Shown here: positions 12,278 through 29,298 of the stretch, piece by piece
Position numbering within the stretch: position 1 is the first letter of the stretch
How the letters are laid out: every line of letters begins with the position of its first letter
Source: Povalibacter uvarum
GTDB lineage: Bacteria > Pseudomonadota > Gammaproteobacteria > Steroidobacterales > Steroidobacteraceae
Assembly: GCF_014202975.1 (NCBI RefSeq)
Contig: NZ_JACHHZ010000001.1
Coordinates: forward strand, 1,302,001 to 1,366,000
DNA: 64,000 bases
Direction of reading: 5' to 3'
Made by a program: the position numbers and the translations under genes
The notes under the pieces: generated by a model
What the model was told of the DNA's origin: nothing
Seen by the model: the letters and a program-made list of their open reading frames with translations, nothing else
Database searches by the model: none

Positions 12278-12937
12278 TCATGAGCGGAACAGACGCGTGT
12301 ACTGGGTTTCATGTCGTGCGCTGGCGACGGACTGCATGACCGAGCAGTAACCGATGTCCTCATCCGCCAGTTCCAGGGCACTCGCCGCCGCAGCCTCCAA
12401 TGAGGGAATGAGCTTGTGGAGGATGCGCTGTCCCGCGCTTTGCCCGAGGGGCACGAGCTTCACCGCCGCCAGCACCTGGTTCTCCGTCCACGCCCACGAA
12501 TATGCGTGCAGTGTTTCGACCTTGCCGACGCCGGACTGCACGCAGGCTTTCGCAAACACAGCCGCATAGCCGAGCGTCTCGGGCTTACGAAGGTCGATGT
12601 CTGCATGAAGCTCCCGCAGAACTCTGATGAGGGCCTGTCCCAGATGCCTGTCTTCCGCTCGCAGTTCTTCCGTCTCACGCGAAGCGATCAGCAATGCATT
12701 CCAGCGTTGCGTTGCTGTGTGATCGTCCTTCGCCGCCGCGTCATGAAGCCTTGCCAGGATCGGCAGGTCCAGCGTTCCAAGCACACCTCGCGCGAGACCG
12801 CCCATCCAGTCATGAGCTGTCGCTTCATCGCGCACCCAGCCTGCTTCGATCGCGTACTCGAGCCCTTGAGAAAAATGAAACGCGCCGATCGGCAGTGCCG
12901 GGCTCGCCAGATGCAGGATGCGCAGAAGTTGATGCAT
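12278..12937 (-). CDS. ureF: urease accessory protein UreF
   Basis: 219 aa, all-helical. LHLASPALPIGAFHFSQGLEYAIEAGWV is the family N-terminal signature and the C-terminus QSVASARHETQYTRLFRS is the conserved tail that contacts UreD/UreH. UreF assembles with UreD and UreG on apo-urease and gates GTP-dependent nickel delivery. It begins 24 nt after ureE and is the last gene of the leftward urea run; no strong ribosome site is visible, so coupling to ureE is likely. Confidence 0.97.
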   Translation of the reverse strand: MHQLLRILHLASPALPIGAFHFSQGLEYAIEAGWVRDEATAHDWMGGLARGVLGTLDLPILARLHDAAAKDDHTATQRWNALLIASRETEELRAEDRHLGQALIRVLRELHADIDLRKPETLGYAAVFAKACVQSGVGKVETLHAYSWAWTENQVLAAVKLVPLGQSAGQRILHKLIPSLEAAAASALELADEDIGYCSVMQSVASARHETQYTRLFRS

Positions 12938-12961
12938 CGGATGGACGCCGCGGCGGCTGAA

Positions 12962-13438
12962 TTACTTCATCCCGACGCCGCGAATGATCGAATGGTCGTC
13001 CGCGTGGCCGTGCGAGTGCCCGCCGTAAGCGCCGCCCTCCGGTTCGAATGGAGCTCGTTCGGCCTCTACCGCCAGCCCGAGACCTCGGACCATTTCATCG
13101 AGCACATGGTCTTGCTGATAACGCAGCCATCCGAACCCGATCTGCAATGCGACGTGACGATTCCCCAGGTGATAAGCCGCGCGCGCAAGCTGCAATGCGT
13201 CTGAGGAACGAACTGTCGAAACGGCCTCTTCCGCCGCAACGACTTCGATGACCCGGCCATCATCGCTCAGCAGCCGATCGCCGCCGCGCAAGACCGAGCC
13301 GCGTTCGAGGAACAGGCCTGCTTCCTCACCGCTCGACAGCGTCGCGCGCAATCGGCTCTTGCTGCGTTCCTGGAACGGGAGAATCAACTGCAGTGTCGCC
13401 GGCGGCCGGTCGGGAAGTTTTCTGGAAACGTTGAGCAT
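12962..13438 (-). CDS. ureE: urease nickel metallochaperone UreE
   Basis: 158 aa. N-terminal peptide-binding domain ([33 protein letters not shown]) and a ferredoxin-like C-domain with [14 protein letters not shown], whose His binds nickel at the dimer interface. The tail [12 protein letters not shown] is a short His-rich nickel-binding extension. It delivers nickel to UreG in urease maturation. It lies 17 nt after ureC. Confidence 0.97.
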
Positions 13439-13455
13439 TGAACCCGATCTGACAA

Positions 13456-15162
13456 TCAGAAGAGGAAGTATCGCTGCGCCAGCGGCAGTTTCGTCGCCGG
13501 CTCGCAGGTGAGTAACTGTCCATCCGCACGAACCTGATAGGTCTGCGAGTCCACTTCGATGCGCGGCTGGTAGTCATTGAGAACGAGATCAGACTTGCCG
13601 AGACTGCGCGTCCCCTTCACCGCCACCAGCCGCTTGCGTAGCTTGAGCCGCTCGCCCATGCCGCGATCGAGACCCGCTTGCGACACGAAGCTGACCGACG
13701 TCGCAGCGCGAGCGCCGCCCAATGCACCGAACATCGGCCGGTAGTGCACCGGTTGCGGCGTCGGAATCGAAGCGTTCGGATCGCCCATCGGCGCTGCGAG
13801 AATCATCCCGCCCTTGATGATCAATGCAGTCTTCGCGCCGAAGAAGGCCGGCTTCCACAGCACGATGTCCGCAAGCTTGCCGACTTCGATCGACCCGACT
13901 TCGTGCGCGATGCCGTGCGTCAGCGCCGGATTGATCGCGTACTTCGCGATGTAGCGACGGACACGGAAATTGTCGTTCCGCGCATTGTCCTGCGGCAGAG
14001 AACCGCGCTGCATCTTCATCTTGTGCGCTGTCTGCCAGGTTCGCGTAATGACCTCGCCGATGCGGCCCATGGCCTGCGAGTCCGACGAGATCATCGAGAA
14101 CGCGCCCAGGTCGTGAAGAATGTCTTCCGCGGCAATGGTCTCGCGACGGATGCGCGATTCCGCAAACGCGACGTCCTCCGCGATTCCCGGATCGAGGTGG
14201 TGACAGACCATCAGCATGTCGAGATGCTCATCGACGGTGTTGATGGTGTACGGACGTGTCGGGTTGGTGGACGATGGAAGAACGTTCGGCTCGCCGCAGG
14301 CCCGAATGATGTCCGGAGCATGGCCACCGCCGGCGCCCTCCGTGTGATACGTGTGAATCGTGCGGCCCTTGAATGCGGCGAATGTGTCTTCCACGAAACC
14401 TGATTCGTTCAGCGTGTCGGTGTGAATCGCGACCTGAACGTCGTACTTCTCCGCAACCGACAGGCATGCGTCGATCGCGGCGGGTGTCGTGCCCCAGTCC
14501 TCGTGGAGCTTCAGCCCCATCACACCCGCTTCGACCTGTTCCGCAATCGGCGCAACGAGGCTCGCGTTGCCCTTTCCGAGCAAGCCGAAGTTGATGGGCA
14601 ATTCCTCGATCGCCTCGTACATGCGATCGATGAACCACGGACCCGGTGTACAGGTAGTTGCGCTCGTACCGGCGGCCGGCCCGGTCCCACCGCCGATCAT
14701 CGTCGTGATCCCGGCCATCATCGCTTCTTCCACCTGCTGAGGGCAGATGAAGTGAATGTGCGCGTCGATCGCACCCGGCGTCGCGATCAACCCTTCTCCC
14801 GCGATGACTTCGGTACCGGCACCAACGACGATCGTGACGCCCGGTTGCACATCGGGATTCCCGCCCTTGCCGATGCCGACAATCCGCCCGTCCTTGATGC
14901 CGATGTCCGCTTTGACGATGCCCCAGTGGTCGACGATCAACGCATTCGTGATGATGGTATCGACGACCTCGGCCGAGACGCGCTGGCTCTGCCCCATTCC
15001 ATCCCGAATGACTTTGCCGCCGCCGAACTTGACCTCTTCGCCATGGATCGTGAAATCACGCTCGACTTCAATGATGAGGTCCGTGTCCGCCAGTCGCACG
15101 CGATCGCCGACAGTCGGGCCGTACATCTCTGCATAAGCGCGTCGATCGATGCGGGTGCTCAC
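13456..15162 (-). CDS. ureC: urease alpha subunit UreC
   Basis: 568 aa, full length. Hydrolyses urea to ammonia and carbamate at a dinuclear nickel site. All ligands are present at positions one higher than in the Klebsiella enzyme: H135 and H137 (AHIHFICP), carbamylated K218 and H220 (GLKLHEDWG), H247, H273 ([15 protein letters not shown]), H321 on the flap (MVCHHLDP) and D361 (SSDSQAMGR). The start is GTG, overlapping the ureB stop as GTGA. Catalytically intact by sequence. Confidence 0.99.
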
Positions 15163-15464
15163 AGTTTCCCCATGATTCTCTGGTTGAACCCGTAGACGAC
15201 GCGGTCACCGCCATAAGCCACGAGTTCGACTTCGCGAATCTGTCCGGGCTCGAAGCGAACGGCGGTGCCTGCGGCGATGTTCAGCCGGAAACCACGCGCG
15301 GCATCGCGGTCGAACTGCAGTGCGCTGTTCGTTTCGTGAAAGTGGTAATGCGAGCCGACCTGGATCGGACGATCGCCGGTGTTCGCGACCTTGACGCGAA
15401 CCGTGGGGCGACCGACGTTGATCTCGATGTCGCCGGACTCGGTGAAGAATTCGCCTGGAATCAT
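15159..15464 (-). CDS. ureB: urease beta subunit UreB
   Basis: 101 aa, starting MIPGEFF as is canonical, with [18 protein letters not shown] and a FNQRIMGKL tail. It is a structural subunit of the (alpha beta gamma)3 enzyme. No Shine-Dalgarno precedes the ATG: a GCGGTTA-type tandem fills the gap to ureA, which may weaken or alter its translation. It overlaps ureC by four bases. Confidence 0.98.
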
Positions 15465-15472
15465 AAGGAGAA

Positions 15473-15501
15473 GCGGTTAGCGGTTAGCGGTTGGCGGTTA
15501 G
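15473..15501. repeat. GCGGTTA tandem repeat between ureA and ureB
   Basis: About four heptamer units, GCGGTTAGCGGTTAGCGG then TTGGCGGTTAG, lie directly upstream of ureB. The same unit type recurs at 47385-47407 beside serS, and GCGGATA variants lie between the tRNAs near 10.98 kb. Confidence 0.8.
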
Positions 15502-15522
15502 TGAGAGAAGACGGGCATAGAG

Positions 15523-15825
15523 TCATGGGATCGGGTGGTGAACGGTGACGAGCTTCGTGCCATCGGGGAAAGTGGCTTCGACCTGGACGTCGGGGATCAT
15601 TTCGGGGACGCCTTCCATTACGTCGTCGCGGCTGAGGATTGTCGTGCCGTAGCTCATGAGCTCGGCGACTGACCGGCCGTCGCGGGCGCCTTCCATGATC
15701 GCTGCGGAAATCAACGCCACGGCTTCAGGGTAGTTGAGCTTCAAGCCACGCGCCTTGCGTCGCTCGGCGACGAGTGCCGCGGTGAAGATGAGCAGCTTAT
15801 CCTTCTCTCTCGGCGTCAGATCCAC
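15523..15825 (-). CDS. ureA: urease gamma subunit UreA
   Basis: 100 aa, family length. [44 protein letters not shown] and the C-terminus [20 protein letters not shown] are diagnostic. It forms the outer layer of the urease trimer. It lies 76 nt after ureD and 58 nt before ureB, both gaps occupied by short repeats. Confidence 0.99.
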
Positions 15826-15860
15826 AATGCTCCCCAGAATTCGATCATCCCACTCTTCCT

Positions 15861-15901
15861 CTGGCTACCAGCTAGTAGCCAGCCTGCTAACCGGCTTCCT
15901 C
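15861..15901. repeat. CTAGC-rich repeat after ureD
   Basis: CTGGCTACCAGCTAGTAGCC followed by AGCCTGCTAACCGGCTTCCTC runs up to the ureD stop codon at 15902-15904. The CCGGCTTCCTC end is shared with the copy that abuts the urtA stop near 21.23 kb. Confidence 0.75.
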
Positions 15902-16735
15902 TCACGTCGCCCATATCCGCGGCAACACCGCCGGCCTTCCGATCAGCTCCGGCCTCAGCATCCGCCACATCGCAATGAACAGGCGCCGCACAGGTTCAGC
16001 CTGTGCGCCGAGCGCGCGACACACTAGCACTCCATCGACCAGGGTCACGGCGCTTTCAACGTCGTGCGCTGAGGCGCTGCGTGCCGCCTCTCGCATCGAT
16101 GTAGTGGCCGGATACGCAAGCAATGTCCCGACGGCATCGAAGCCTGCCAATCCCCAGCGCGCAGTTCGCTCGGGGCCCGTTCCATCGAGACGCATGCGAT
16201 CGATGAAGAGCGGCAGCTCATCTCGCCACAGCTCGAGATTCAGCCGCAGCTCGCCTGCATCGAATGCCTCCTGGCGGGCAGGCAATCCCAGACATGGAAT
16301 CTCCCAGCCAATGAATCGCGATTGGGCATCCAGCTGAACACGCGTCTCGCTGCGCACGCGGGCGCCGCGATAGAAGATGGTCTCCTGTGGCAGCCACTCC
16401 AGCGTCGAAGCACTCAGCACCAGGTGCTGGGACTGCATCGCGAAGCGACCGTCGCTGCGATAGAACTTCGTTGCGGCTGGTGTCGTAATCAGCGAGTGCG
16501 CTCCGCGTTCAACGTTCATCTCGAGTCCGAGGTGATCGCCACCAACGACGCCGCCCGGCGGATGCACGAGATAGGTGTGGCAAGGGCCGCCTTCAGGATG
16601 GAAGGCGCGCTGCACGACGAGCGGTCCATGATGCTGTCGCTCGGACAGATACGTCTGCCCGCCACGCTCTGTGAACCGGAGCTTCAGATGCGCGCACCAC
16701 CCTTGCGCCGCCGTTGCTGCCGGGATGCTGGCCAT
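15902..16735 (-). CDS. ureD: urease accessory protein UreD (UreH)
   Basis: 277 aa. Motifs LKLRFTERGGQTYLSERQHHGPLVVQRAFHPEG, VHPPGGVVGGDHL, ITTPAATKFYRSDG, LEWLPQETIFYRGA and FGW-like GWEIPCLGLPARQE are all UreD hallmarks. UreD is the scaffold that docks UreF and UreG onto urease and carries a nickel tunnel. It begins only 3 nt after the urtE stop, joining the transporter and urease genes in one transcript. Confidence 0.97.
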   Translation of the reverse strand: MASIPAATAAQGWCAHLKLRFTERGGQTYLSERQHHGPLVVQRAFHPEGGPCHTYLVHPPGGVVGGDHLGLEMNVERGAHSLITTPAATKFYRSDGRFAMQSQHLVLSASTLEWLPQETIFYRGARVRSETRVQLDAQSRFIGWEIPCLGLPARQEAFDAGELRLNLELWRDELPLFIDRMRLDGTGPERTARWGLAGFDAVGTLLAYPATTSMREAARSASAHDVESAVTLVDGVLVCRALGAQAEPVRRLFIAMWRMLRPELIGRPAVLPRIWAT

Positions 16736-16738
16736 GCG

Positions 16739-17434
16739 CTAGACCGTCAGATGATGCCGCACGAGATCGTCCGTTAGCCCTGCGATGCGGTCCGCGGCAA
16801 CGATGCGCCCCTTGTCGATGATCCGGAACTCGCTGGCGACGCGACGGGCGAAAGGCAGCTTCTGTTCGACGAGCAGCACAGTCAGGTTCGCCTCCTTGTT
16901 GAGTCGCAGGATGATATCCCCGATCTCATGGACGATGTTGGGCTGAATGCCCTCGGTGGGTTCATCGAGAATGAGGAGCTTCGGCTCCAGTACCATCGCC
17001 CGCCCGATCGCCAGTTGCTGCTGCTGGCCGCCCGACAGGTCGCCGCCACGGCGCCGCAGCATCTTCTTCAGTACGGGAAACATCGTGAAGATCTGCTCCG
17101 GGATCTCCTTCAGCTTGCCGCGGCTCGCGGACAACCCGATGCGCAGGTTCTCTTCGACCGTCAGCTGCGAAAAGATCTCGCGGCCCTGGGGAACGTAGCC
17201 GACGCCCAGCCTCGCCCGCCGGTCAGCCGAAATCTTTCGCAGGTCCGTGTCGTCGTACAGCAACTCGCCCGACACCGTCGGCAGCAGCCCCATGATGCAT
17301 TTCAGCAGCGTGGTCTTCCCCATGCCATTGCGTCCCATCAGGCATGTGCAGGAACCCGTCGGCACGGTCATGTCCACATCCCAGAGGATGTGGCTGCCGC
17401 CGTAAAACTGATTGAGAGATTTGATGGTCAGCAT
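16739..17434 (-). CDS. urtE: urea ABC transporter ATP-binding protein UrtE
   Basis: 231 aa. LivF-like ATPase: Walker A GRNGMGKTT, signature LSGGQQQQLAIGRAM, Walker B LLILDEPTEG, followed by the UrtE-typical GIQPNIVHEIGDII. It pairs with UrtD to power urea import. It starts 21 nt after the urtD stop and is followed within 3 nt by ureD. Confidence 0.96.
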   Translation of the reverse strand: MLTIKSLNQFYGGSHILWDVDMTVPTGSCTCLMGRNGMGKTTLLKCIMGLLPTVSGELLYDDTDLRKISADRRARLGVGYVPQGREIFSQLTVEENLRIGLSASRGKLKEIPEQIFTMFPVLKKMLRRRGGDLSGGQQQQLAIGRAMVLEPKLLILDEPTEGIQPNIVHEIGDIILRLNKEANLTVLLVEQKLPFARRVASEFRIIDKGRIVAADRIAGLTDDLVRHHLTV

Positions 17435-17455
17435 GACAGCTAGTGCAATGGCTCC

Positions 17456-18283
17456 TCATTCGCCCAGGTAGACCTCGACGACCTTCGCGTCGTTCTGCAC
17501 CTGGTCCATCGTCCCCTCCGCGAGAACGTGACCTTCGTGCAGGACGGTGACCTTGCGCGCGATCGAGCGTACGAAGTTCATATCGTGCTCGACGACGACA
17601 ACGGAGTGCTGACCCTCCAGCGACAGCAGCAGCTCGGCGGTTCGCTCCACTTCTTGCGGCGTCATGCCCGCGACAGGTTCGTCGACGAGAAGCATCTGCG
17701 CGTCCTGCATCAGGAGCATGCCGATCTCCAGCCACTGCTTCTGGCCGTGGGACAACACACCGGCGCGTGTGTCACGGCGGTCCTGCAACCGCACTGTCTC
17801 GAGAACGTGATCGATCCGATCGCGCTGCACTGCCGTCAGCGGACTGAACAGCGTGGCCCAGATCGACTTGTTGCCGGCCGCCGCCAGCTCGAGATTCTCC
17901 AGCACAGTGTGCTGCTCGAAGACGGTGGGCTTCTGAAACTTGCGGCCGATGCCTGCTTCCGCGATCTGCGGTTCCGTGAGCGTCAGCAGATCGATGGTCT
18001 GGCCGAACCAGGCCGATCCGGCGTCAGGACGCGTCTTGCCGGTGATCACGTCCATCATGGTCGTCTTGCCGGCGCCATTGGGGCCGATAATGCAGCGCAG
18101 TTCTCCAGCGTCGACATAGAGCGTCAACGCGTTCAGCGCCTTGAAGCCATCGAAGCTGACGGTGATGTCCTCGAGATAGAGGATCGTCCCGTGCGTCGTA
18201 TCAGGTGCTATCGGTCGCTCGCTGCGTGCGCCCGTTCCGAAGACCTTCTGCCATCCCTGCCGCAATGCCGTCGATGCGTTCAT
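17456..18283 (-). CDS. urtD: urea ABC transporter ATP-binding protein UrtD
   Basis: 275 aa. LivG-like ATPase with Walker A GPNGAGKTTMMDVITGKTRP, the UrtD-specific GRKFQKPTVFEQHTVLENLEL, the signature LSHGQKQWLEIGMLL (LSHGQ rather than LSGGQ, usual in UrtD) and LLVDEPVAGMT. About 35 N-terminal residues precede the domain. The start overlaps the urtC stop by four bases. Confidence 0.96.
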   Translation of the reverse strand: MNASTALRQGWQKVFGTGARSERPIAPDTTHGTILYLEDITVSFDGFKALNALTLYVDAGELRCIIGPNGAGKTTMMDVITGKTRPDAGSAWFGQTIDLLTLTEPQIAEAGIGRKFQKPTVFEQHTVLENLELAAAGNKSIWATLFSPLTAVQRDRIDHVLETVRLQDRRDTRAGVLSHGQKQWLEIGMLLMQDAQMLLVDEPVAGMTPQEVERTAELLLSLEGQHSVVVVEHDMNFVRSIARKVTVLHEGHVLAEGTMDQVQNDAKVVEVYLGE

Positions 18284-19413
18284 GCTTTCGCCGCCTCCGG
18301 CACGGGTTCCCGGCTTCCGGGAGTAAAGCGGTCCGCAAGGCCGACGACTCCGCGCGGCAGGAAAAGCGTGACCAGCACGAACAGCGCTCCGAGCGCGTAC
18401 AGCCAGAACTCCGGCACAGCGGCAGTGAAGTAGCTCTTCGCGTAGTTGACGATGACCGCGCCGGCGACTGCGCCGTAAAGCGTCCCACGACCGCCTACCG
18501 CCACCCAGATCACCACTTCAATGGAGTTGATCGGCTGGAACTCGCTCGGATTGATGATGCCGACTTGCGGCACATACAACGCTCCGGCGATTCCCGCCAG
18601 CACTGCGGAGAAGGTGAACACCCAAAGTTTGTACGACTCCACACGATAGCCGATGAAGCGCGTCCGGCTCTCCGCATCGCGAATCGCCTGCACAACCCGG
18701 CCCGCTCGCGACAGCGTGATGTAGCGGCAGGCCAGATAGCCCAGGCCCAGAGCGATCGCCGAAGCAACGAACAGTCCGACGCGTGTCCCCGGCTGGTTGA
18801 TGCCGAACCCGAGAATGTCCTTGAAATCGGTGAGCCCGTTGTTGCCGCCAAAGCCCATGTCATTGCGGAAGAACGCCAGCATCAGCGCATACGTCAGCGC
18901 CTGCGTGATGATCGAGAGATAGACACCCGTCACGCGCGAGCGGAAGGCGAGCCAGCCGAACAGCAACGCAAGCAGGCCCGGCACGAGAATCACCATGAGC
19001 GCGGCGAACCAGAACATGTCGAAGCCTTGCCAGAACCAGGGCAGTTCCTTCCAGTTCAGGAAGACCATGAAATCGGGCAGGATCGGATCGGCATAGACAC
19101 CGCGCGTGCCGATCTGACGCATCAGGTACATGCCCATCGCGTAGCCGCCGAGCGCGAAGAACGCCGCATGACCGAGACTGAGGATGCCGCAGTAGCCCCA
19201 GACCAGATCGACCGCCACCGCGAGCAGCGCGTACGTCATGTACTTGCCGATCAGCGTCATCGTGTACGACGACAGGTGCAGCGGCGAGCCGGCGTCGAAT
19301 GTCAGATGCAGCACTGGAACGAGAACAGCCGTCGCAACCAGCACCGACAGGAAGATCCTGGTTCCGCGCTCTCCCAGCAACGACTCCATCAGTGGTGTAC
19401 TTGGCTTCATCAT
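18280..19413 (-). CDS. urtC: urea ABC transporter permease UrtC
   Basis: 377 aa from the first ATG of ATGATGA, which overlaps the urtB stop. LivM-like permease with about nine or ten membrane segments; WGYCGILSLGHAAFFALGGYAMGMYLM and FRSRVTGVYLSIITQAL are characteristic. GGNNGLTDF and GRGTLYGAVAGAVIVNYAKS are UrtC-type. Together with UrtB it forms the inner-membrane urea channel. Confidence 0.96.
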   Translation of the reverse strand: MMKPSTPLMESLLGERGTRIFLSVLVATAVLVPVLHLTFDAGSPLHLSSYTMTLIGKYMTYALLAVAVDLVWGYCGILSLGHAAFFALGGYAMGMYLMRQIGTRGVYADPILPDFMVFLNWKELPWFWQGFDMFWFAALMVILVPGLLALLFGWLAFRSRVTGVYLSIITQALTYALMLAFFRNDMGFGGNNGLTDFKDILGFGINQPGTRVGLFVASAIALGLGYLACRYITLSRAGRVVQAIRDAESRTRFIGYRVESYKLWVFTFSAVLAGIAGALYVPQVGIINPSEFQPINSIEVVIWVAVGGRGTLYGAVAGAVIVNYAKSYFTAAVPEFWLYALGALFVLVTLFLPRGVVGLADRFTPGSREPVPEAAKA

Positions 19414-21092
19414 CCCTCGGCGGCGCGGCCCTTCTGCGGGAACAGTCCGCGCGGCCGTCGTTGAATGAACAGGATCAATGCAATCAGAACCAGGATCTTC
19501 GCAAGCACTGCGCCGGCGAACGGTTCCAGTACCTTGTTGATGACGCCGAGCGACATGCCGCCGATGAGCGTGCCCCAGAGATTCGCGACGCCGCCGAAGA
19601 CGACGACCATGAAGGAATCGATGATGTACTGCTGGCCGAGGTTTGGACCGACGTTCGTCAATTGACTCAGCGCGACGCCCGCCACGCCGGCGATGCCGGA
19701 GCCGAGACCGAACGTCAGCGCATCGACCCACTCAGTGCGAACGCCCATGGATTTGGCCATCGCACGGTTCTGAGCCACGGCGCGGACCTTCAGTCCAAGC
19801 GTCGTCTTCTTCAGCACGATCAGCAGCACTGTGAAGACGACTGCGGTGAAGAGGATCACGTACAGGCGATTGTAGGTAATCGAAAGCGCTTCATTGATCT
19901 GCCACGAACCGGCCATCCATGCGGGCGTCTCCACCGGGCGATTGTTGGCCGTGAAGATGTCGCGGACGATCTGCTGGAGAATCAGGCTGACGCCGAACGT
20001 TGCAAGGAGCGTCTCGAGCGGCCGACCATAAAGGAACCGGACGACGCCGCGCTCGATGAGTATCCCCACCGTACCCGCCACGAGAAACGCCATCGGGATC
20101 GCGACCACCACCGAAGCGCCGATGTGCGAAGGCATCAGCAGTTGCATGACGTAGGTGGTGTAGGCGCCGAGCATGATCAGCTCGCCATGCGCCATGTTGA
20201 TGACACCCATCACTCCGAACGTGATTGCGAGTCCGATCGCGGCAAGGACGAGCACCGATCCCAGGCTCAGCCCGAAGAACAGCGTCTCGACCCCGCCATA
20301 GATGCTTCGCCAGTTGTCGATATTGCGCACGGTCGCGGCGGCGGCTGCTCGCACCTGGTCGTCGGGTTCGTTGAATGCCCCATCGTCGCCGCGACCGGTG
20401 AGTTCCTTCAGGCGGTTGTAGACATCGGGACTCAGGCTGTCTTCGAGCCGCACAGCCGCTGCAAGACGAACTGCCGCGTCCTCATTGTCGAGATCCGCCA
20501 GCGCGAGACCCGTCTCGATGGCACTCCGCACCTTGCTGTCCGATTCTTCCGCGACTCGCTGCCGCAGAATCAGGACACCATCCTCATCCAGGGTCCGAAG
20601 CATCTCGCTCACCGCCGCGAGTCGTACCTCCGCGTCCGGATCCGACAGGTCGAACCCGGCGATCAGTCCCCTGAGCGCCTTGCGAAGCTGATTGTTCGTC
20701 GTGATCTTCGTGAATTCATCGGCCGGAGCCGATCCGGCGGCTTGCAACATCAGCGGATCTGTCAGCGCGAGACCCTCCTCCCCCTCCGTAACGATGAAGA
20801 TCCGTTGATCGGCATCGCGCGTATGCAGATTGCCTTCGAGCAGTGCACTCAGCACCGGGCGTGCGTTGGGATGGCGCGTCGCCGCGATTGCGGCGATGAC
20901 CTGTTGCTTCTCCTGAAAGCTGGCGGTGGCCAGCGGCTTCAGTGCTTGCGCAAACGTTTCATTGGCATCGGCGGCACTCGCGATCGAAGGCAACAGCGCC
21001 AGCATCGTCATGAATGCCAGAACGAAGCGGCTCCGCACTGAGGTCTGTCGATCCGGTCTCGTCAAAGGACGGCTCCATCGTTGGGTTGCCAT
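19410..21092 (-). CDS. urtB: urea ABC transporter permease UrtB
   Basis: 560 aa from ATG at 21092. A signal-like stretch (SRFVLAFMTMLALLPSIASA) is followed by a periplasmic HEAT-like helical domain (residues about 45-250), then a LivH-like permease with FGLSLGSVLVLAAIGLAITFGVMGVINMAHGE. Upstream in-frame codons lie inside an intergenic repeat and read MDSRFRGNDDF, so the longer version is rejected. GTG at 21038 is an alternative start giving a more usual signal peptide. No clear ribosome site settles this. Confidence 0.93.
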   Translation of the reverse strand: MATQRWSRPLTRPDRQTSVRSRFVLAFMTMLALLPSIASAADANETFAQALKPLATASFQEKQQVIAAIAATRHPNARPVLSALLEGNLHTRDADQRIFIVTEGEEGLALTDPLMLQAAGSAPADEFTKITTNNQLRKALRGLIAGFDLSDPDAEVRLAAVSEMLRTLDEDGVLILRQRVAEESDSKVRSAIETGLALADLDNEDAAVRLAAAVRLEDSLSPDVYNRLKELTGRGDDGAFNEPDDQVRAAAAATVRNIDNWRSIYGGVETLFFGLSLGSVLVLAAIGLAITFGVMGVINMAHGELIMLGAYTTYVMQLLMPSHIGASVVVAIPMAFLVAGTVGILIERGVVRFLYGRPLETLLATFGVSLILQQIVRDIFTANNRPVETPAWMAGSWQINEALSITYNRLYVILFTAVVFTVLLIVLKKTTLGLKVRAVAQNRAMAKSMGVRTEWVDALTFGLGSGIAGVAGVALSQLTNVGPNLGQQYIIDSFMVVVFGGVANLWGTLIGGMSLGVINKVLEPFAGAVLAKILVLIALILFIQRRPRGLFPQKGRAAEG

Positions 21093-21118
21093 CGGGCTGC
21101 ACGATCTGTTCCAGAAGT

Positions 21119-21186
21119 CGTCATTCCCGCGGAAGCGGGAATCCATGCCTTTCTTCCGGATGGATCTCGCGTACGCGGGGATGACG
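21119..21186. repeat. paired inverted repeat of the ATTCCCGCG type, copy B
   Basis: Left half CGTCATTCCCGCGGAAGCGG and right half GGATCTCGCGTACGCGGGGA are inverted relative to each other, separated by about 20 nt. It lies between urtA and urtB, inside the operon, and is adjoined by a CTAGC-rich repeat. Confidence 0.85.
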
Positions 21187-21230: not shown

Positions 21231-22523
21231 TCACTCGTAGTTCTGCCCCGAGCACTTCTTCGTCTTCGTGTTGTAGTTGCCGCACTTGAGCGTGACCCAG
21301 TCGGCTTCGATGTCCTTGCTGCCCGGCAGGTAGTCGGACCAGGCGTCGCCCGGGACGAGACCCTCGGTCTTCCACACCACATCGAACTGCCCGTCGGCAC
21401 GGATCTCACCGATGAACACGGGCTTTGTCAGGTGATGATTCGCGAGCATCTTCGCGGTGCCGCCGGTCATGTTGGGCACTTCGATGCCGATCATTGCGTC
21501 GGTGACCTTGGCCACGTCGATGGTCTTGGCCTTCTCGACGGCCTTCACCCACATGTTGAAGCCGATGACGTGCGCTTCCATCGGATCGTTGGTCACGCGC
21601 TTCGGATTCTTGGTGTAGGCGTGCCATTCCTTGATGAACGACTTGTTGACCGGTGTGCTGATGCTCTCGAAGTAGTTCCAGGCGGCCAGGTGGCCGACCA
21701 GAGGCTTCGTGTCGATGCCCGAGAGCTCCTCTTCACCGACCGAGAAGGCCACGACCGGAATGTCCTCCGCCGAGATCTTCTGATTGCCGAGCTCCTTGTA
21801 GAACGGCACGTTCGCGTCACCGTTGATCGTCGAGACGACGGCCGTCTTCTTCCCCGCTGAGCCGAATTTCTTGATGTCCGCCACGATGCTCTGCCAGTCG
21901 GAGTGACCGAACGGCGTGTAGTTGATCAGGATGTCTTCCTGCTTCACGCCCTTCGCCTTGAGATAGGCCTCGAGGATCTTGTTGGTCGTGCGCGGATAGA
22001 CGTAGTCCGTGCCGGCGAGCACCCAGCGCTTCACGCCGATGTCCTTCATCAGGTAGTCGACGGCGGGAATCGCCTGCTGGTTCGGTGCCGCGCCGGTGTA
22101 GAAGACGTTCTTCGACGATTCCTCGCCTTCGTACTGCACCGGGTAGAACAGCAAACCATTGTTCTTCTCGAACACCGGCAGCACGGACTTGCGTGACACC
22201 GACGTCCAGCACCCGAAGACGACGGCCACCTTGTCCTTCACCAGCAACTGTTCCGCCTTCTCGGCGAAGAGCGGCCAGTTCGACGCCGGATCGACGACGA
22301 CCGCTTCGAGCTTCTTGCCCAGCACGCCGCCTTTCTTGTTCTGCTGCTCGATCATCATCAGCACGGTGTCTTTGAGCGTCGTCTCGGAGATCGCCATCGT
22401 TCCCGACAGCGAATGAAGCACGCCCACCTTGATGGTGTCCGCCGCCTGCGCCGCGCTCGCGGCGATGAATGAAATTGCAGCCGCGAGTCCTGCCAGGCCG
22501 CGCACCCTGCGTCGATTGTTCAT
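21231..22523 (-). CDS. urtA: urea ABC transporter substrate-binding protein UrtA
   Basis: 430 aa with a signal peptide ending at AAQAA. TIKVGVLHSLSGTMAISETTLKDTVLMMIE is the UrtA N-terminus; GCWTSVSRKSVLPVFE, LLFYPVQYEGEESSKNVFYTGA and GTDYVYPRTTN are urea-binding-protein signatures distinguishing it from LivK. It captures urea in the periplasm and hands it to UrtBC. Repeats flank it on both sides, so urtA may be expressed at a level different from the rest of the operon. Confidence 0.98.
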   Translation of the reverse strand: MNNRRRVRGLAGLAAAISFIAASAAQAADTIKVGVLHSLSGTMAISETTLKDTVLMMIEQQNKKGGVLGKKLEAVVVDPASNWPLFAEKAEQLLVKDKVAVVFGCWTSVSRKSVLPVFEKNNGLLFYPVQYEGEESSKNVFYTGAAPNQQAIPAVDYLMKDIGVKRWVLAGTDYVYPRTTNKILEAYLKAKGVKQEDILINYTPFGHSDWQSIVADIKKFGSAGKKTAVVSTINGDANVPFYKELGNQKISAEDIPVVAFSVGEEELSGIDTKPLVGHLAAWNYFESISTPVNKSFIKEWHAYTKNPKRVTNDPMEAHVIGFNMWVKAVEKAKTIDVAKVTDAMIGIEVPNMTGGTAKMLANHHLTKPVFIGEIRADGQFDVVWKTEGLVPGDAWSDYLPGSKDIEADWVTLKCGNYNTKTKKCSGQNYE

Positions 22524-22635: not shown

Positions 22636-23697
22636 TTAGATCTGAACCTGCAACCCCAGCCCGATCTCCGTGCCGCCGCCCTCACCTTCCAGGTCCTGAT
22701 CGATGTAGAAGAGATGCACGCGCGCGTTCTGGCCCTTGATGATGTAGTTCAGGTTGAGTTCCAGCGTCTCCAGGTCGGCGTCGCCGTCGACGAATCCGTA
22801 GGTAGTTTCGCCGTACTTCGCGAGCACCTGGAATCGCCCGATCCCCACGACCTGCGGGAACATGTAAGCGCCGAGCAGGTAGTAGCCGTCGCTATCCGCA
22901 TCGAAGCCGCCTACATATCCCTGCGGCGCCTCGTAGTCGGCGTACTGCGCTTCGACTGTGACGACACCGCCACCGCCAAGCTTCTTCTCGAGCAGGAAGT
23001 CGCCGGTGTAGCCGAGACTGGTTCCGACCTTCTGCGCAGCGAGGCCGACTGCCAGCAGATCCTTCTCGCCGTAGTACGAACCATTGAGGTAGTACCCGCC
23101 CTCCGGATCCCAGAAATCGAGTTGGACGCGACCGGCATAGAGGACATCTGAATCGCCGCGCGTCTGCGGCACGTCGAACGCGCCGAACGACACCTTGGCC
23201 ATCCCGAACTGGCCCCAGTACATGACGCCATCATCGCGACCGGTCGTCTCGAAGAGGTAGCCGTCCTGAACGCCATCGCGATAGACGCCCCAGTTGCTCG
23301 CGTAGTAAGGGCCGTAGAGGTTCGCGCGATCGCTCGGGGGCAGGAAGCGGCCGGCCCAGATGTTGAACTGATCGGAGAACGCGAACTGGATCGCGGCGTC
23401 GATGACGTCGACTTCCTCGCCGTTGTACTCCGTGTTGAACATCACGCTGATCGTGTCGGTCGCTTTGCCGCTGATGTAGATGCGCGCACTGTCGAGCTCG
23501 AAGTCGTCGATGGTCTCGTCGGCCCCGTCGATATCAATCGATGAGAAATTCGTGCGCACACCGGCGCCGACCGAGATCGGTGGCAGATTGATGTCCGCCG
23601 CCATCACAGCGGGAAGCGGCGACGCGAGAAGTGCGGCACCGAGCGAGAGCGCAGCGGCTCCGGGCCTCGTGAAACGGTTTGCTGATTGCTGACGCAT
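22636..23697 (-). CDS. outer-membrane porin-like protein of the urea operon
   Basis: 353 aa from ATG at 23697, with AAGGA about 11 nt upstream. Signal peptide ends near AVMAA. The mature protein alternates polar and hydrophobic residues throughout (INLPPISVGAGVRTNF, RVQLDFWDPEGGYYLNGSYY, LETLELNLNYIIKGQNARVHLFY), is acidic, and resembles phosphate-selective-porin-like barrels. As first gene of the urt-ure run it probably forms the outer-membrane route for urea or related amides. Specificity is inferred from position. Confidence 0.87.
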   Translation of the reverse strand: MRQQSANRFTRPGAAALSLGAALLASPLPAVMAADINLPPISVGAGVRTNFSSIDIDGADETIDDFELDSARIYISGKATDTISVMFNTEYNGEEVDVIDAAIQFAFSDQFNIWAGRFLPPSDRANLYGPYYASNWGVYRDGVQDGYLFETTGRDDGVMYWGQFGMAKVSFGAFDVPQTRGDSDVLYAGRVQLDFWDPEGGYYLNGSYYGEKDLLAVGLAAQKVGTSLGYTGDFLLEKKLGGGGVVTVEAQYADYEAPQGYVGGFDADSDGYYLLGAYMFPQVVGIGRFQVLAKYGETTYGFVDGDADLETLELNLNYIIKGQNARVHLFYIDQDLEGEGGGTEIGLGLQVQI

Positions 23698-23798
23698 GAA
23701 CGTGGATTCCTTTGCGATGTTGTTTGCGAGCGTTCGGCTCGTGCCAGGTCGTTCCTCGGCTCGAACGCTACGGGTGAGCCCCCATCGCGGGTACGGGG

Positions 23799-23831
23799 CA
23801 TTTGACGTACGCGCATGGGCCATTTGACGTA
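23799..23831 (+). promoter_or_regulatory. direct repeat CATTTGACGTA x2, candidate regulator site
   Basis: GGCATTTGACGTACGCGC and GCCATTTGACGTAGGCGC lie 22 nt apart, two turns of the helix, between the porin gene and the sigma-54 promoter. The core CATTTGACG occurs again, inverted, at 29200-29208 upstream of ureG. The neighbouring LuxR-type response regulator is the obvious candidate to bind here. Confidence 0.45.
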
Positions 23832-24111: not shown

Positions 24112-27100
24112 ATGACGGCCAGACAACGAATCGTTCGCGAACGCCGGCAGTACAACCAGTGGGTTGCCAGCCAGACACTCGAGGACTACGCGCTGCGCTA
24201 CACAGCCGAGCGCGCTCGGCGCTCGACGTTCAGCGTCGGCAACACCGCGTTGGGGCCGATCGCGTTCCTTGCCTGCGAGGCGATCGGCGGCGGCATCACC
24301 CTCGCCTACGGATTCGCGAATGCCGCGTGGGCCATCGCCGCCTTCTCGATTCTCATGTTCCTGATCGGACTGCCCATCGCTTACTACGCCGCGAAGGATG
24401 GCGTGGACCTCGATCTCCTCACACGCGGCGCCGGCTTCGGCTACATGGGCTCGACCATCACGTCGCTCATCTATGCGTCGTTCACGTTCCTACTGTTTGC
24501 GTTCGAAGCCAGCATCCTGTCCATGGCCCTGACCATGATGTTCGACATCCCGCTCTGGGTGGCCCACATCATCAGTTCGCTCGTGGTGATCCCGATTGCG
24601 ATCTACGGCATCAGCCTCATCAGCAAGATGCAGATCCTGACGCAGCCGATCTGGTTGATCCTGCAGTTCCTGCCGTTGATCTACCTGGCCTGGAATCATT
24701 CAGCGGAGGTCGGCCAGTGGACCGGCTACGCCGGACGCGAAGGAGCGCCCGACGGCTCGGTGGACTTCCTGCTCTTCGGCATGGCGGCTTCAGTCCTGCT
24801 TTCGCTGCTGCCACAGATCGGCGAGCAGGTCGATTACCTGCGATTCATGCCGAAGCGAACGAAGGAGAATCGCGCCGGCTGGTGGACTGCGCTGCTCACG
24901 ACGGGGCCAGGCTGGATTCTCATGGGAGCGTTCAAGCTCCTCGCGGGGTCGTTCCTCGCGTTTCTGGCCATCAAACACGGTGTCGCGGTCGAACAGGCCG
25001 ACGAACCGACGGAGATGTACTTCGTCGCCTTCCGTGAAACGGTGCAGTCGCCGACCGTTGCATTGATCCTCATGGGGATATTCGTCATCGTCTGCCAGCT
25101 CAAGATCAACGTGACGAACGCCTACGCGGGATCGATCGCCTGGTCGAATTTCTTCTCCCGCCTGACCCACAGTCATCCGGGCCGGGTCGTCTGGCTCGTG
25201 TTCAATGTCCTCGTTGCGCTGCTGCTGATGCAGACCGGCATCTTCAGTGTGATCGAGAGCATCCTGCTCATCTATGCGAACTTCGCCGCCGGATGGATCG
25301 GCGCGCTCACCGCCGACCTCGTCATCAACAAGCCCCTCGGATTCAGCCCGAAGCATATCGAGTTCAAACGCGCACACCTCTACGACATCAACCCGGTCGG
25401 CGTCGGCGCGTTGTTCATCTCTGTCGTGCTGTCGACACTGTCGTTCATCGGCACTTTCGGCAACGTCGCGCAGATCCTCTCGCCTTTCGTCGCCCTCTTC
25501 AGCGGCTTCATCACAGCACCGCTGATCGCGTGGGCGACACGCGGCCGGTACTACATCGCCCGTTCCCCGTCGGGCTTGCCCGATGGCGCCGAGTTGCGAT
25601 GCACGATCTGCGAGAACACATTCGAGCGGGCCGACGTCGCCATGTGTCCTGCGTACTCCGGCCCGATCTGTTCGCTGTGCTGCACGCTCGAGGCACGTTG
25701 CCGCGACATGTGCAAGACCGAAAGCCGCTTCAACGAGCAACTACGCCGCTTCCTCGCTACTGCGTTGCCCGCCCGAGCGGCGACTGCGCTCAATACACGC
25801 GGCGGCCAGTTCGTCGGGCTGCTGCTGCTGTTCAATCTCGCCATCGGCACGATGCTGGCGCTGATCTATCACCAGTCGGGCAACTCAGCGGCGGAACGCG
25901 AGATCATCGGCACGACGCTCTGGGTCGTCTTCCTCAGTCTGCTCGTGCTCTCCGGCATCGCAGCGTGGATCATCGTGCTGGCGCACGAAAGCCGGCGGGC
26001 TGCCGAAACCGAATCGGCACGCCAGACCAGCATGCTCATGGACGAAATCGAGGCACACAAGCGAACCGACAAGGCGCTGCAGAAGGCGAAGGAAGTTGCG
26101 GAGGCGGCGAATCTCGCGAAGACGCGTTACATCGTCGGGGTGAGTCATGAGATCCGCACGCCGCTCAACTCCATCTTCGGTTACGCGCAGTTGCTCGAAC
26201 GCGGGATCGCCGGCCCCTCCGACAACGCAGTGCGTGTGATCCGGCGCAGCGCGGAACACCTGACGAACCTGATCGACGGCCTCCTCGATGTCTCGAAGAT
26301 CGAGAACGGCATGCTGCGACTCAATCGGGATCAGGTAAAGCTGGTCGAGTTCCTCGACCAGATCGTCGACATGTTCAGGCTCCAGGCAGCCGCGAAGGGC
26401 ATCGACTTCCGCTACCAACGCCCGCCTCACCTGCCGGCCTACGTACACACCGACCAGAAGCGGCTACGGCAGATCCTGATCAACCTCCTGTCGAACGCGA
26501 TCAAATACACCGAGCAGGGACACGCGAGCCTCGTCGTTCGGTATCGCAACCAGGTCGCGGAGTTCGAGATCTCCGATACCGGCATCGGCATTCCGGCCGA
26601 GGACCTCGAACGCGTGTTCGAACCGTTCGAGCGCGGCAACGCACCACGTGTGCGCGCGATTCCGGGTACGGGACTCGGCCTCACGATTACCAAGCTGCTC
26701 ACTCAGATCATGGGCGGCGAAATCCTGCCGCGAAGCACACCTGGCGTCGGCACGACATTCACGGTGCGACTGCTGCTGTCAGAGGCCATGCATGGCGTGA
26801 AGGACGACACCGTCCCCGGCCCCGTCAGCGACCACGACGGTCCGCAACTCACCGTGTTGCTCATCGATGACGATCCGCAGCATCTCGACATGATGCGGAC
26901 GCTGCTCCAACCGCTTCGCTTTCGCATACTGACTGCGCCGGACGGCGCAACCGGCCTGCGGCTCGCTGCGGAGCATGGCCCGAACCTCGCGATGGTCGAC
27001 ATCTCGCTCCCCGACATGACTGGCTGGGAGATCGCCGAATTGCTGCGAACCGCGAACACACGGACACGCATCGTCATGGTCTCCGCGAATGCGCACGAGT

Positions 27101-27465
27101 ACCACCCGGGCGGTGGCGAAGGCGCGGTACACGATGCGTTCGTCATGAAGCCGATCGACATGCGGGCAATGCTCGAATGCATCGGCAAGGTGATGGGCTT
27201 GAAGTGGACCTACGACGCTCCGCACCTGCCCGCCACGGCAGAGGCCGCAACGAATCTTCTGCCGCAGCATTCACGCCATCACCTCGACGACCTCTACCAG
27301 CTCGGCCGCATCGGCCATGTGCGCGGCATCCAGGCGAAGCTGCGCCAGATGGAGGAAGAGGACACGGCGAACGCCCCTGTCGCCAAGCAGCTGCGAGGCC
27401 TGGTGGCCAATTTCGATCTCAAGCGATACATGAACGTTGTGGAGGCGATGCGCAATCATGGCTAA
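24112..27465 (+). CDS. NCS1-permease-like transporter fused to hybrid sensor histidine kinase
   Basis: 1117 aa. Residues about 30-480 are a cytosine/purine-permease-like domain with around 12 membrane helices (GNTALGPIAFLACEAIGGGI, GAGFGYMGSTITSLIY, VTNAYAGSIAWSNFFSRLT). A cysteine cluster follows (C497, C500, C512, C520, C523, C524, C530, C534), then two more helices (about 560-625), a coiled linker, a HisKA/HATPase core (H679 in SHEIRTPLNSIFGY; DTGIGIPAED; GTGLGLTI), a receiver with D963 (MVDISLPDMTGWE), and a helical tail. It lies divergent from the urt-ure operon and overlaps the response regulator by 8 nt, so sensing of urea or a related nitrogen compound by the permease domain is likely but unproven. 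Confidence 0.93.
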   Translation: MTARQRIVRERRQYNQWVASQTLEDYALRYTAERARRSTFSVGNTALGPIAFLACEAIGGGITLAYGFANAAWAIAAFSILMFLIGLPIAYYAAKDGVDLDLLTRGAGFGYMGSTITSLIYASFTFLLFAFEASILSMALTMMFDIPLWVAHIISSLVVIPIAIYGISLISKMQILTQPIWLILQFLPLIYLAWNHSAEVGQWTGYAGREGAPDGSVDFLLFGMAASVLLSLLPQIGEQVDYLRFMPKRTKENRAGWWTALLTTGPGWILMGAFKLLAGSFLAFLAIKHGVAVEQADEPTEMYFVAFRETVQSPTVALILMGIFVIVCQLKINVTNAYAGSIAWSNFFSRLTHSHPGRVVWLVFNVLVALLLMQTGIFSVIESILLIYANFAAGWIGALTADLVINKPLGFSPKHIEFKRAHLYDINPVGVGALFISVVLSTLSFIGTFGNVAQILSPFVALFSGFITAPLIAWATRGRYYIARSPSGLPDGAELRCTICENTFERADVAMCPAYSGPICSLCCTLEARCRDMCKTESRFNEQLRRFLATALPARAATALNTRGGQFVGLLLLFNLAIGTMLALIYHQSGNSAAEREIIGTTLWVVFLSLLVLSGIAAWIIVLAHESRRAAETESARQTSMLMDEIEAHKRTDKALQKAKEVAEAANLAKTRYIVGVSHEIRTPLNSIFGYAQLLERGIAGPSDNAVRVIRRSAEHLTNLIDGLLDVSKIENGMLRLNRDQVKLVEFLDQIVDMFRLQAAAKGIDFRYQRPPHLPAYVHTDQKRLRQILINLLSNAIKYTEQGHASLVVRYRNQVAEFEISDTGIGIPAEDLERVFEPFERGNAPRVRAIPGTGLGLTITKLLTQIMGGEILPRSTPGVGTTFTVRLLLSEAMHGVKDDTVPGPVSDHDGPQLTVLLIDDDPQHLDMMRTLLQPLRFRILTAPDGATGLRLAAEHGPNLAMVDISLPDMTGWEIAELLRTANTRTRIVMVSANAHEYHPGGGEGAVHDAFVMKPIDMRAMLECIGKVMGLKWTYDAPHLPATAEAATNLLPQHSRHHLDDLYQLGRIGHVRGIQAKLRQMEEEDTANAPVAKQLRGLVANFDLKRYMNVVEAMRNHG

Positions 27466-28390
27466 CGAAGCACTGCGCCGCGATACGGTTCTCGTCGTCG
27501 ACGACACGCCCGAAACGCTCGGCTTTCTGACCGACACGCTCGATCACGCAGGCTTCACCGTGCTCATCGCGACCGACGGCGAAGCCGCGCTCGACCTGGT
27601 CGATCAGATCACACCGGATCTCGTTCTGATGGATGCGGTGATGCCAGGCATGAACGGTTTCGAAGCCTGTCGCCGGCTCAAGCGCGAGAAGCTGCTCGCA
27701 CAGCTCCCCGTCATCTTCATGACGGGCCTGAGCCAGACGGAGCATGTCGTCGAAGGACTGGCCGCGGGCGGTGTCGACTACGTGACCAAGCCGATCGTTG
27801 TCGATGAATTGCTGGCGCGCATTCGCGTGCACCTCGCGAACGCCCGCATCGCCCATGGAACACACGCCGCGCTCGATGCGACGGGCCGCTTTCTCCTCGC
27901 CACCGACCGACGCGGTCGCCTGCTCTGGTGTACTCCGAAGGCGCGGCAACTCCTCTCGGAGCTGTTTCCCGCGCAAGGCGACCAGAACGCCACCCTGCCA
28001 CCGGAACTCATCACGCAACTGATGCAGTTGCGCCAGGACGGTGCGAAGCCCAGCACGCGATCGCATCTTGCGGTCGGCGGCCGAAGACTGGAAATCTCGA
28101 TGCTCAGCTCACTCGGCCCGGATGAGCTCCTGTTTCGCCTGACCGAACTCGTGACCGGCAGCGAAGAACAGGTCCTCCAGCAATCGTTGTCACTGACCTC
28201 GCGCGAATCCGAGGTCCTGCTCTGGATCAGCCGCGGCAAGTCGAACCGCGAAATCGGTGAGATCCTGACCATCAGTCCGCGCACAGTCAACAAACACCTG
28301 GAGCAGGTATTCGTGAAGCTCGGCGTGGAGAACCGGGCGTCGGCGGCGGCGCGGGCGGTGAAGACGTTGGGAAGCAGGCTAGCCAGCTAG
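27458..28390 (+). CDS. LuxR-type response regulator partner of the permease-kinase
   Basis: 310 aa from ATG at 27458, inside the last codons of the kinase gene. Receiver domain with D15/D16, phospho-acceptor D59 (VLMDAVMPGMNG) and K in VTKPI; a middle region about residues 140-225 resembles a degenerate PAS-like domain (RFLLATDRRGRLLWCTPKARQLL); a LuxR helix-turn-helix closes it (LTSRESEVLLWISRGKSNREIGEILTIS). It probably controls the urea genes. The stop codon lies within a CTAGC-rich repeat (final residues LAS). Confidence 0.93.
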   Translation: MANEALRRDTVLVVDDTPETLGFLTDTLDHAGFTVLIATDGEAALDLVDQITPDLVLMDAVMPGMNGFEACRRLKREKLLAQLPVIFMTGLSQTEHVVEGLAAGGVDYVTKPIVVDELLARIRVHLANARIAHGTHAALDATGRFLLATDRRGRLLWCTPKARQLLSELFPAQGDQNATLPPELITQLMQLRQDGAKPSTRSHLAVGGRRLEISMLSSLGPDELLFRLTELVTGSEEQVLQQSLSLTSRESEVLLWISRGKSNREIGEILTISPRTVNKHLEQVFVKLGVENRASAAARAVKTLGSRLAS

Positions 28391-28515: not shown

Positions 28516-28531
28516 CTGGCTAGCTGGCTCT
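28516..28531. repeat. CTAGC-rich repeat at the 3' end of ureG
   Basis: CTGGCTAGCTGGCTCT contains the TAG stop of ureG (28520-28522, minus strand) and encodes its last residues, Arg-Ala-Ser. Confidence 0.7.
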
Positions 28532-29140
28532 CTTCAACATCCCCTGCCTCTCAATAAACGCCGTCACCTGGTCCAGTCCCTGGCCCGTCTTCAGGTTCGT
28601 GAATACGAACGGCTTGTCGCCGCGCATCTTGCGGGCGTCGCGGTCCATGACTTCGAGAGAGGCGCCTACGTGGGGCGCGAGATCGATCTTGTTGATGATC
28701 AGAAGATCGGATCGCATGATCCCGGGCCCGCCCTTGCGCGGGATCTTGTCGCCTGCGGCGACATCGATCACGTAGAGGGTCAGGTCCGAGAGCTCCGGAC
28801 TGAAGGTAGCCGCGAGATTGTCTCCGCCGCTTTCGACAATGATCATGTCGAGGCCGCTGAAATCCTTCATCAGCTGATCGATCGCGGCCAGATTCATGGA
28901 CGCGTCTTCGCGAATGGCCGTATGCGGACAGCCGCCGGTCTCGACGCCACGGATGCGTTCGGCGGGCAACGCCTGGCTGCGGATCAGGAATTCGCAGTCT
29001 TCACGGGTGTAGATGTCATTCGTCACCACTGCGATGTTGAAGTCATCGCGCATCCGCTTGCACAGCGAATCGACGAGCGCCGTCTTGCCCGATCCGACTG
29101 GACCACCGACACCTACGCGCAGAACATCGCTATTCGCCAT
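28520..29140 (-). CDS. ureG: urease accessory GTPase UreG
   Basis: 206 aa from ATG at 29140 with GGAGAGGG just upstream. P-loop [17 protein letters not shown], nickel-binding Cys-Pro-His in [17 protein letters not shown], and [11 protein letters not shown] for guanine recognition. UreG couples GTP hydrolysis to nickel delivery from UreE to the UreDF-urease complex. It is separated from ureF by about 15.6 kb, beyond the transporter and regulator genes, and has its own upstream region with a CATTTGACG motif. Confidence 0.98.
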
Positions 29141-29298
29141 CGCCCTCTCCAGCACCGGGACGACAGGATGATACGACGTCCGTCTCGGCAATCCGACTGC
29201 GTCAAATGACTTATGGCACCATCGGCACTTGCTGGCGAGAGCGGCGTTGATGCGAGCCACTGCGGCAGAATGAGACTGGAAGGCGAACAGGAGGGACC

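Follow-up and report, generated by a model that had tools for sequence, protein, structure and literature searches.

What does a sensor histidine kinase perceive when its input domain is an entire transporter-like protein, and what links it to the genes for urea uptake and hydrolysis among which it is encoded? The question is raised by a locus of the gammaproteobacterium Povalibacter uvarum, located at positions 24,112 to 28,390 of a stretch of 64,000 nucleotides (assembly GCF_014202975.1, contig NZ_JACHHZ010000001.1, positions 1,302,001 to 1,366,000), and this whole stretch will be referred to as the window. As judged from sequence comparisons, the kinase, whose membrane domain is of the NCS1 type, and its partner response regulator probably form a two-component system that perceives small carboxamides, urea being the most likely one at this locus, and turns on the genes for taking them up and hydrolysing them. 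An earlier reading of the letters alone, termed here the sequence-only reading, had described an NCS1-like permease fused through a cysteine cluster and two extra helices to a hybrid kinase, wired to a urea operon and perhaps able to perceive either urea or one of its precursors.

Architecture and fold of the kinase

The components of the system, all on the plus strand, are the following; lengths are in amino acids (aa), and ORF stands for open reading frame.

24112..27465, plus strand: hybrid sensor histidine kinase P0001 with an NCS1-type membrane domain, 1117 aa (ORF, Pfam, relatives)
24169..25566, plus strand: NCS1/APC-fold membrane domain, residues ~20-485, the proposed ligand-binding part (profiles, AlphaFold2, PDB fold matches)
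25591..25716, plus strand: eight-cysteine (8-Cys) module, residues ~494-535, with C497, C500, C512, C520, C523, C524, C530 and C534 (alignment)
25798..25986, plus strand: two extra helices, residues 563-588 and 593-624, leading into the kinase linker (AlphaFold2 model)
26125..27180, plus strand: kinase HisKA (H679), HATPase_c and C-terminal receiver (Pfam)
27458..28390, plus strand: response regulator P0002, 310 aa, with a receiver, a ~100-aa middle part and a LuxR-type helix-turn-helix (HTH) domain (Pfam)

This order of parts, as first described from the letters, is confirmed by Pfam, profiles, alignment and the AlphaFold2 model. P0001 matches HisKA (residues 672-733), HATPase_c (780-889) and receiver (915-1023) models, and P0002 matches a receiver (11-123) and the LuxR-type GerE domain (245-298), its middle region of about 100 aa having no Pfam match. 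The H-box, ATPase and receiver of a hybrid histidine kinase are thus accompanied by a separate receiver-HTH protein, and the two ORFs do overlap by 8 nt (27458-27465), as had been stated. By its kinase gene, the closest relative is an uncultured Steroidobacter (91%).

Regarding the membrane domain, the Pfam NCS1 model PF02133 misses it, and the label NCS1-like therefore required other proof. At the gathering score this model matches neither the window kinase nor five fused relatives, and it has no match anywhere in the whole genome; a stand-alone relative (L014/L139) reaches 15.8 bits against a cut-off of 23.5, and PDB sequence searches with the membrane domain returned either nothing or chance-level matches. 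The label is nevertheless upheld by three other lines of evidence. Profile-profile comparison matches the domain to six NCS1 permeases at 98.8% (E 5.7e-17), or at 99.5% (E 3.8e-22) with a membrane-domain profile built from 69 sequences. A stand-alone protein (L137, ~30% identical) serves as a bridge, since it matches both TIGR00800 ncs1, at E 2.5e-16 and below the curated cut-off, and the kinase membrane-domain profile at E 8.8e-32. Finally, an AlphaFold2 model made from 69 sequences (pLDDT 89.0, pTM 0.87) has only CodB or Mhp1 among its five best PDB matches, with a TM-score (target) of 0.81 for CodB, and an earlier model from 27 sequences gave an agreeing fold. With profiles, bridging protein and fold in accord despite the Pfam failure, chance resemblance is ruled out, and the domain is, on this comparative and modelled evidence, a homologue of NCS1 permeases whose ion site is altered and which the Pfam model overlooks. 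A kinase of the SLC5/STAC type was also considered and ruled out: no SSF or STAC domain is present, the Pfam matches being HisKA, HATPase_c, receiver and a sub-threshold DUF6377.

Conservation was read from an alignment (A4) of 67 kinase-fused rows, taken from a non-redundant set of 71 from which L050, L102, L109 and L135 were left out. The pocket candidates Y121, E132, Q329, N333, N336 and Y338 are invariant in all 67 rows, as are E56, T125, E238 and Q239 (kinase-fused proteins only). When aligned with Mhp1, K331 and I332 fall on S312 and T313, which we take to be the Ser/Thr of the Na+ (Na2) site on transmembrane helix 8 (TM8). The Ser/Thr typical of this site in NCS1 proteins is absent, K331 being lysine in 67/67 fused rows and arginine in two stand-alone relatives, and a lysine in the Na+ site suggests that Na+-coupled transport has been lost in the kinase. 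Invariant N336 corresponds to Asn318, which on TM8 of Mhp1 binds hydantoin (PMC4195764); invariant E132 corresponds to Gln121, and Leu128 to the stacking residue Trp117.

The 8-Cys module has no Pfam match, and a PDB sequence search with it gave one chance-level match. It seems to belong with the permease, because a stand-alone permease related to the window's family (L139:3793-5415) carries the same module; the stand-alone relatives L137 and L155 (Arthrobacter) are without it.

Beyond the kinase family, a true NCS1 permease (PF02133 over cut-off, nearest to cytosine permease) occurs at L143:206-3870 between genes for an aliphatic amidase and a formamidase, an arrangement that hints that NCS1 permeases can carry small amides.

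Spread of the family and its gene neighbourhoods

The family was followed through a sample of 398 genomes from the window's own phylum, Proteobacteria, where the membrane domain is matched in 57 genomes, in 52 of them (by our own count) at full or near-full length. For set 1, 59 regions, mostly of 20 kb, were fetched, 56 of which have a full or near-full kinase-fused domain; the partial matches of G097, G129, G253 and G295 lie outside the fetched regions, and the partial loci L038 and L041 and the stand-alone permeases L137 and L139 were dropped before the neighbourhood count. Set 2 comprises 36 loci, 34 of full length, and both sets contain near-copies. Since 57 of the 398 genomes have a match, and since in all 56 fetched full-length loci the frame that begins with the match runs to 881 aa or more, the kinase architecture is not due to chance.

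In set 1, 54 of the 56 loci lie within ~10 kb of genes for formamidase or amidase (37, labelled by FmdA or AmiE) or of urea genes (17, labelled by urease genes or canonical urtA); the remaining two, with neither gene type, are both on cut contigs. Identities of FmdA, AmiE and a second type of UrtA were checked by NCBIfam on examples. Set 2 has 25 linked loci out of 34 (19 urea, 5 amide, 1 both), the nine unlabelled ones consisting of three short contigs, five Nitrospirillum loci and L043. Moreover, FmdA exceeds its cut-off in 39 of the 398 genomes, and the kinase is found in 38 of these versus 14 of the 359 others (Fisher P 3e-40, without correction for kinship). Relatives were not found to lie consistently away from urea or purine genes, and the claimed wiring of a transporter-domain kinase to urea genes is strongly supported by these conserved neighbourhoods, by the co-occurrence with FmdA and by the shared operator-like palindrome presented in the next section.

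In a quick tree built from 71 kinases after a redundancy cut at 90%, with long branches L050, L132 and L113, the urea/amide label requires eight changes, five to eight of which are forced by well-supported branches, versus a mean of 23-24 after shuffling. The label is thus clustered yet has switched repeatedly within the small-carboxamide class, so that the link to the class survives the swaps. Five genomes have two full copies: four of them (G217, G305, G438 and G284) have one copy at each kind of locus, and G150 has both at amide loci. In Sphingobium, the kinase-regulator pair closes the urease operon itself.

The family also occurs on plasmids. A tblastn search of plasmids gave 520 records that match the membrane domain, which does not imply presence of the kinase (one, L155 of Arthrobacter, is a stand-alone permease); 340 are from Klebsiella, and 303 of the 520 are typed conjugative. 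Where the kinase is annotated in such records, it is mostly called an 'ATP-binding protein', otherwise a hybrid or ArcB-like kinase. Six named plasmid loci were fetched from the kinase-type matches, one of which (L156), having no annotation, stands outside the labelling and the motif scan; four of the five annotated loci have urea or amide genes, L151 being without. In Methylosinus trichosporium OB3b, plasmid pOB3b1 carries the kinase-regulator pair next to urt/ure genes, and no palindrome there exceeds the score used in the scan. In another plasmid locus, L154, an IS5 element is close by, and its gene table, which is incomplete, contains no regulator gene.

Some variants depart from the usual architecture. 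L133 and L134 (~7100-11050) encode proteins of ~900 aa with no room for an attached receiver, both near FmdA, and the kinase of L134 has a 4-nt overlap with a separate protein that resembles a receiver plus kinase. In G347, a kinase (L138:9756-12604) has part of the family's linker and the kinase portion, and no NCS1 domain; it is convergent with a regulator that shares 44% identity with the L094 regulator. The signal of this kinase must differ from that of the fused family.

A shared palindrome upstream of the predicted target genes

A motif search of the upstream regions returned TACGTCA-TT-TGACGTA, i.e., the palindrome TACGTCA-N2-TGACGTA, whose 7-2-7 layout we liken to a NarL-type site. Upstream, the half site TGACGTA occurs at about 14 to 18 times its density elsewhere in the loci. 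The strict pattern TACGY-N6-RCGTA, with a gap of 6, stands upstream of the kinase in 27 of 68 loci, as against no more than 3 loci for every other gap between 0 and 15. Outside the set from which the motif was made, 14 strict copies exist elsewhere in the loci, 13 of them shortly upstream of candidate target genes: five before fmdA, four before urtA, two before amiE and two before porin genes, at 73-254 bp, a distance that refers to the edge of the tblastn alignment and not to a mapped start of the gene; the last copy is inside urtA. The stretches before those genes amount to 2.6% of the DNA, and the resulting binomial P of 4e-20 is too good, because the 260-bp limit was set after the distances had been seen and the loci are close kin. 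In the scan of five plasmid loci, urtA is preceded by a site in three, and in L157 so is ureD; no other position in these three exceeds the score.

In the window, the kinase-regulator pair is divergent from a porin-urtABCDE-ureDABCEF block that begins ~415 bp upstream of the kinase, and ureG is located beyond the regulator, convergent with it:

23794..23831, plus strand: two imperfect operator-like sites (23794-23809 and 23816-23831), a 22-nt tandem ~97 bp upstream of the likely porin start
29198..29213, minus strand: imperfect operator-like site ~58 bp upstream of the likely ureG start (29140)
22636..23697, minus strand: outer-membrane porin, start by eye at 23697, long ORF to 23982 (ExtI-type porin family, below cut-off)
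21231..22523, minus strand: urtA, binding protein of the urea ATP-binding cassette transporter (TIGR03407 over cut-off)
16739..21146, minus strand: urtB, urtC, urtD and urtE (TIGR03409, 03408, 03411 and 03410 over cut-offs)
12278..16735, minus strand: ureD, ureA, ureB, ureC, ureE and ureF (family model for ureC only)
28520..29140, minus strand: ureG, likely start 29140 within a longer ORF (TIGR00101 over cut-off)

The ORFs named ureD, A, B, E and F are presumably these genes, as assigned from sequence and recall, the ureD ORF having no NCBIfam match at 1e-10.

The best palindrome scores in the window are those at 23816, before the porin gene, and at 29198, before ureG; matches at 19654 (in urtB) and 21989 (in urtA) may be due to chance. 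Sites before ureG exceed 99% of the null in 7 of 17 loci, all from the window's own clade and some of them near-copies. A genome-wide pattern scan finds only the two window sites, versus a chance expectation estimated at ~0.75 and none with the reversed control, a result that gives weak support because the pattern was written after both sites had been seen.

Two other features of the window may be mentioned. Repeated short palindromes of the cccgcgaaagcggga type, resembling repetitive extragenic palindromes and recognized by eye, mark gene borders at 22560-22630 and 28430-28505, and a separate two-component pair of LytS/LytTR-type appearance, named from its sequence by eye, lies on the minus strand at 31571-33452.

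Proposed signal and mechanism, and comparison with known systems

In the proposed mechanism, the NCS1-fold domain would bind the amide directly in its central site, and the 8-Cys module and the two extra helices would transmit the rocking motion of this fold to the kinase, changing its activity at H679. Phosphate would then move from the kinase to the LuxR-type regulator, which would bind the NarL-like 7-2-7 palindrome and its variants before porin-urtABCDE-ure and ureG and, as we infer, activate rather than repress these genes; in relatives, the same system would induce formamidase or amidase operons. As for the signal, the sequence-only reading had left the choice between urea and a precursor. 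That the association is with the whole class of small carboxamides (amide genes at 37 of 56 loci, urea genes at 17) favours urea or the amide itself, and the precursors, namely purines, hydantoins and allantoin, find no support.

Several observations weigh against this assignment. L043, a relative with full flanks, has no urea or amide gene nearby; at the five Nitrospirillum loci, a range of ~10 kb contains a porin and a Urt-like transporter only; and the pair of L151 (Azospirillum ramasamyi), also with full flanks, has neither type of gene over 9 kb and adjoins an operon of the xanthine-dehydrogenase family. UrtA exceeds its cut-off in 135 of the 398 genomes, most of which lack this kinase, and urt genes can therefore be controlled in other ways. 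The palindrome is also unevenly distributed: the strict form precedes the kinase in 25 of 34 amide but 1 of 30 urea loci (and in the single locus with both labels), the looser TRCGY-N6-RCGYA in 29 of 34 versus 12 of 30, and by the score matrix 30 of the 34 amide regions and 18 of the 29 urea regions exceed 99% of the null. No site over the score is present in L151 or L152, and those of the window itself are imperfect. Lastly, a search for specificity residues had to be rejected, as no position of the membrane domain cleanly separates urea-linked from amide-linked kinases. Were the H2N-C(=O) group common to these compounds the feature recognized, such an outcome would be expected, without being proof; it would fit a shared moiety, but also a signal other than an amide.

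The alternative that survives best, although unlikely, is that the kinase senses nitrogen status or ammonium, with the NCS1 domain as an anchor or relic. Urease, formamidase and amidase all release ammonia, so that every linked enzyme yields the same product, and the lack of a separating residue agrees with such a common signal. A precedent also exists in Ks-Amt5, an ammonium-sensing kinase with a transporter fold (PMC5764959). However, the central-site residues are strictly kept, unlike those of a relic, and a general nitrogen regulator should not show the bond to a single class of enzymes that the kinase shows at 54 of 56 loci and in 38 of 39 FmdA genomes.

Less probable still, the kinase might watch a transporter or the binding protein UrtA at work instead of a free ligand, in the way that PhoR watches the Pst transporter. 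The kinase is often divergent from urtA, as this would lead one to expect, but urt genes are absent from the 20 kb taken at the urease-only loci L123, L129, L131 and L136, UrtA being encoded elsewhere in the genome, and the AlphaFold2 model has no large periplasmic domain for docking.

It is quite improbable that the 8-Cys module is itself the sensor, of nickel, zinc or redox state, to match the nickel-dependent urease. Its eight cysteines are invariant in 67/67 fused rows, but equally so at formamidase and amidase loci, whose enzymes are not nickel enzymes, and the stand-alone permease L139 has the same module. Finally, it is hardly credible that the kinase senses precursors of the purine, hydantoin or allantoin type, the compounds of classical NCS1 transport: fold and family point to it, as does the neighbourhood of L151, but four purine/pyrimidine/hydantoin-type probes (annotated xanthine-dehydrogenase-family subunits, and hydantoinase- and dihydropyrimidine-dehydrogenase-like ORFs named by eye), a small set without allantoin or urate genes, matched none of 95 loci, and the stacking Trp117 of Mhp1 is replaced by Leu128.

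Detection of small carboxamides thus remains the preferred reading. More tentatively, and as a possibility that we hold a little short of even, NCS1 may join SLC5 and Amt as a transporter fold that has been put to use as a receptor, giving a widespread and often plasmid-borne kinase family in which a fixed lysine has uncoupled the domain from sodium and made it a dedicated carboxamide receptor, the 8-Cys module links permease to kinase, and the system acts in Proteobacteria as a direct urea sensor and near-obligate regulator of FmdA. A direct sensor, if confirmed, would explain how many bacteria, plasmid carriers included, induce the use of urea and small amides, which are important sources of nitrogen. 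It would also bring NCS1 into the range of receptor folds, with stand-alone relatives against which to compare it, and the operator-like palindrome makes the predicted regulon directly testable.

A search of the open-licence PubMed Central (PMC) literature found no description of an NCS1-fused kinase family. Mhp1 and CodB share the fold, and Mhp1 also the TM8 asparagine, but they lack a kinase, and the window kinase differs by Lys/Ile for the Na+-site Ser/Thr, Leu128 for Trp117 and Glu132 for Gln121. AmiC/AmiR, in which AmiC is soluble and AmiR binds RNA, likewise controls aliphatic amidase in response to amides, as proposed here, whereas the window system is a membrane kinase with a LuxR-type regulator. 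An amiE-fmdAB-urtABCDE cluster of Pseudomonas veronii is noted in PMC13209695 to be without amiC and amiR, and the NCS1-kinase system is a candidate for its missing regulator. For Dechloromonas aromatica, Table 4 of PMC2907700 lists UrtA together with two neighbours, a kinase of 1131 aa and a receiver protein of 308 aa. The ammonia sensor GrtK was ruled out as a relative, since its domain is of the 6-helix PilS type (PMC12918730).

Comparable in principle are other kinases that carry a transporter domain. Ks-Amt5, which binds its ligand without efficiently translocating it, resembles the proposed system in placing a transporter fold on a histidine kinase, and differs in having an Amt fold, ammonium as the ligand and an anammox host (PMC5764959). 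In CbrA, CrbS and RpuS, an SLC5 transporter domain and STAC are joined to a histidine kinase for the use of histidine, acetate and pyruvate (PMC13022988, PMC9100948 and PMC5715377). The fusion of transporter to kinase (hybrid in CrbS and RpuS) is common to both groups, as are, for CrbS and RpuS, the LuxR-type partner and, for CrbR of CrbS/R, an inverted-repeat site, imperfect in that system (PMC5715377) and a shared palindrome in ours; the window kinase instead has NCS1 for SLC5, and the 8-Cys module with two helices where those proteins have STAC. The system of Povalibacter uvarum would thus work like CbrA, CrbS or Ks-Amt5, but stands outside their families.

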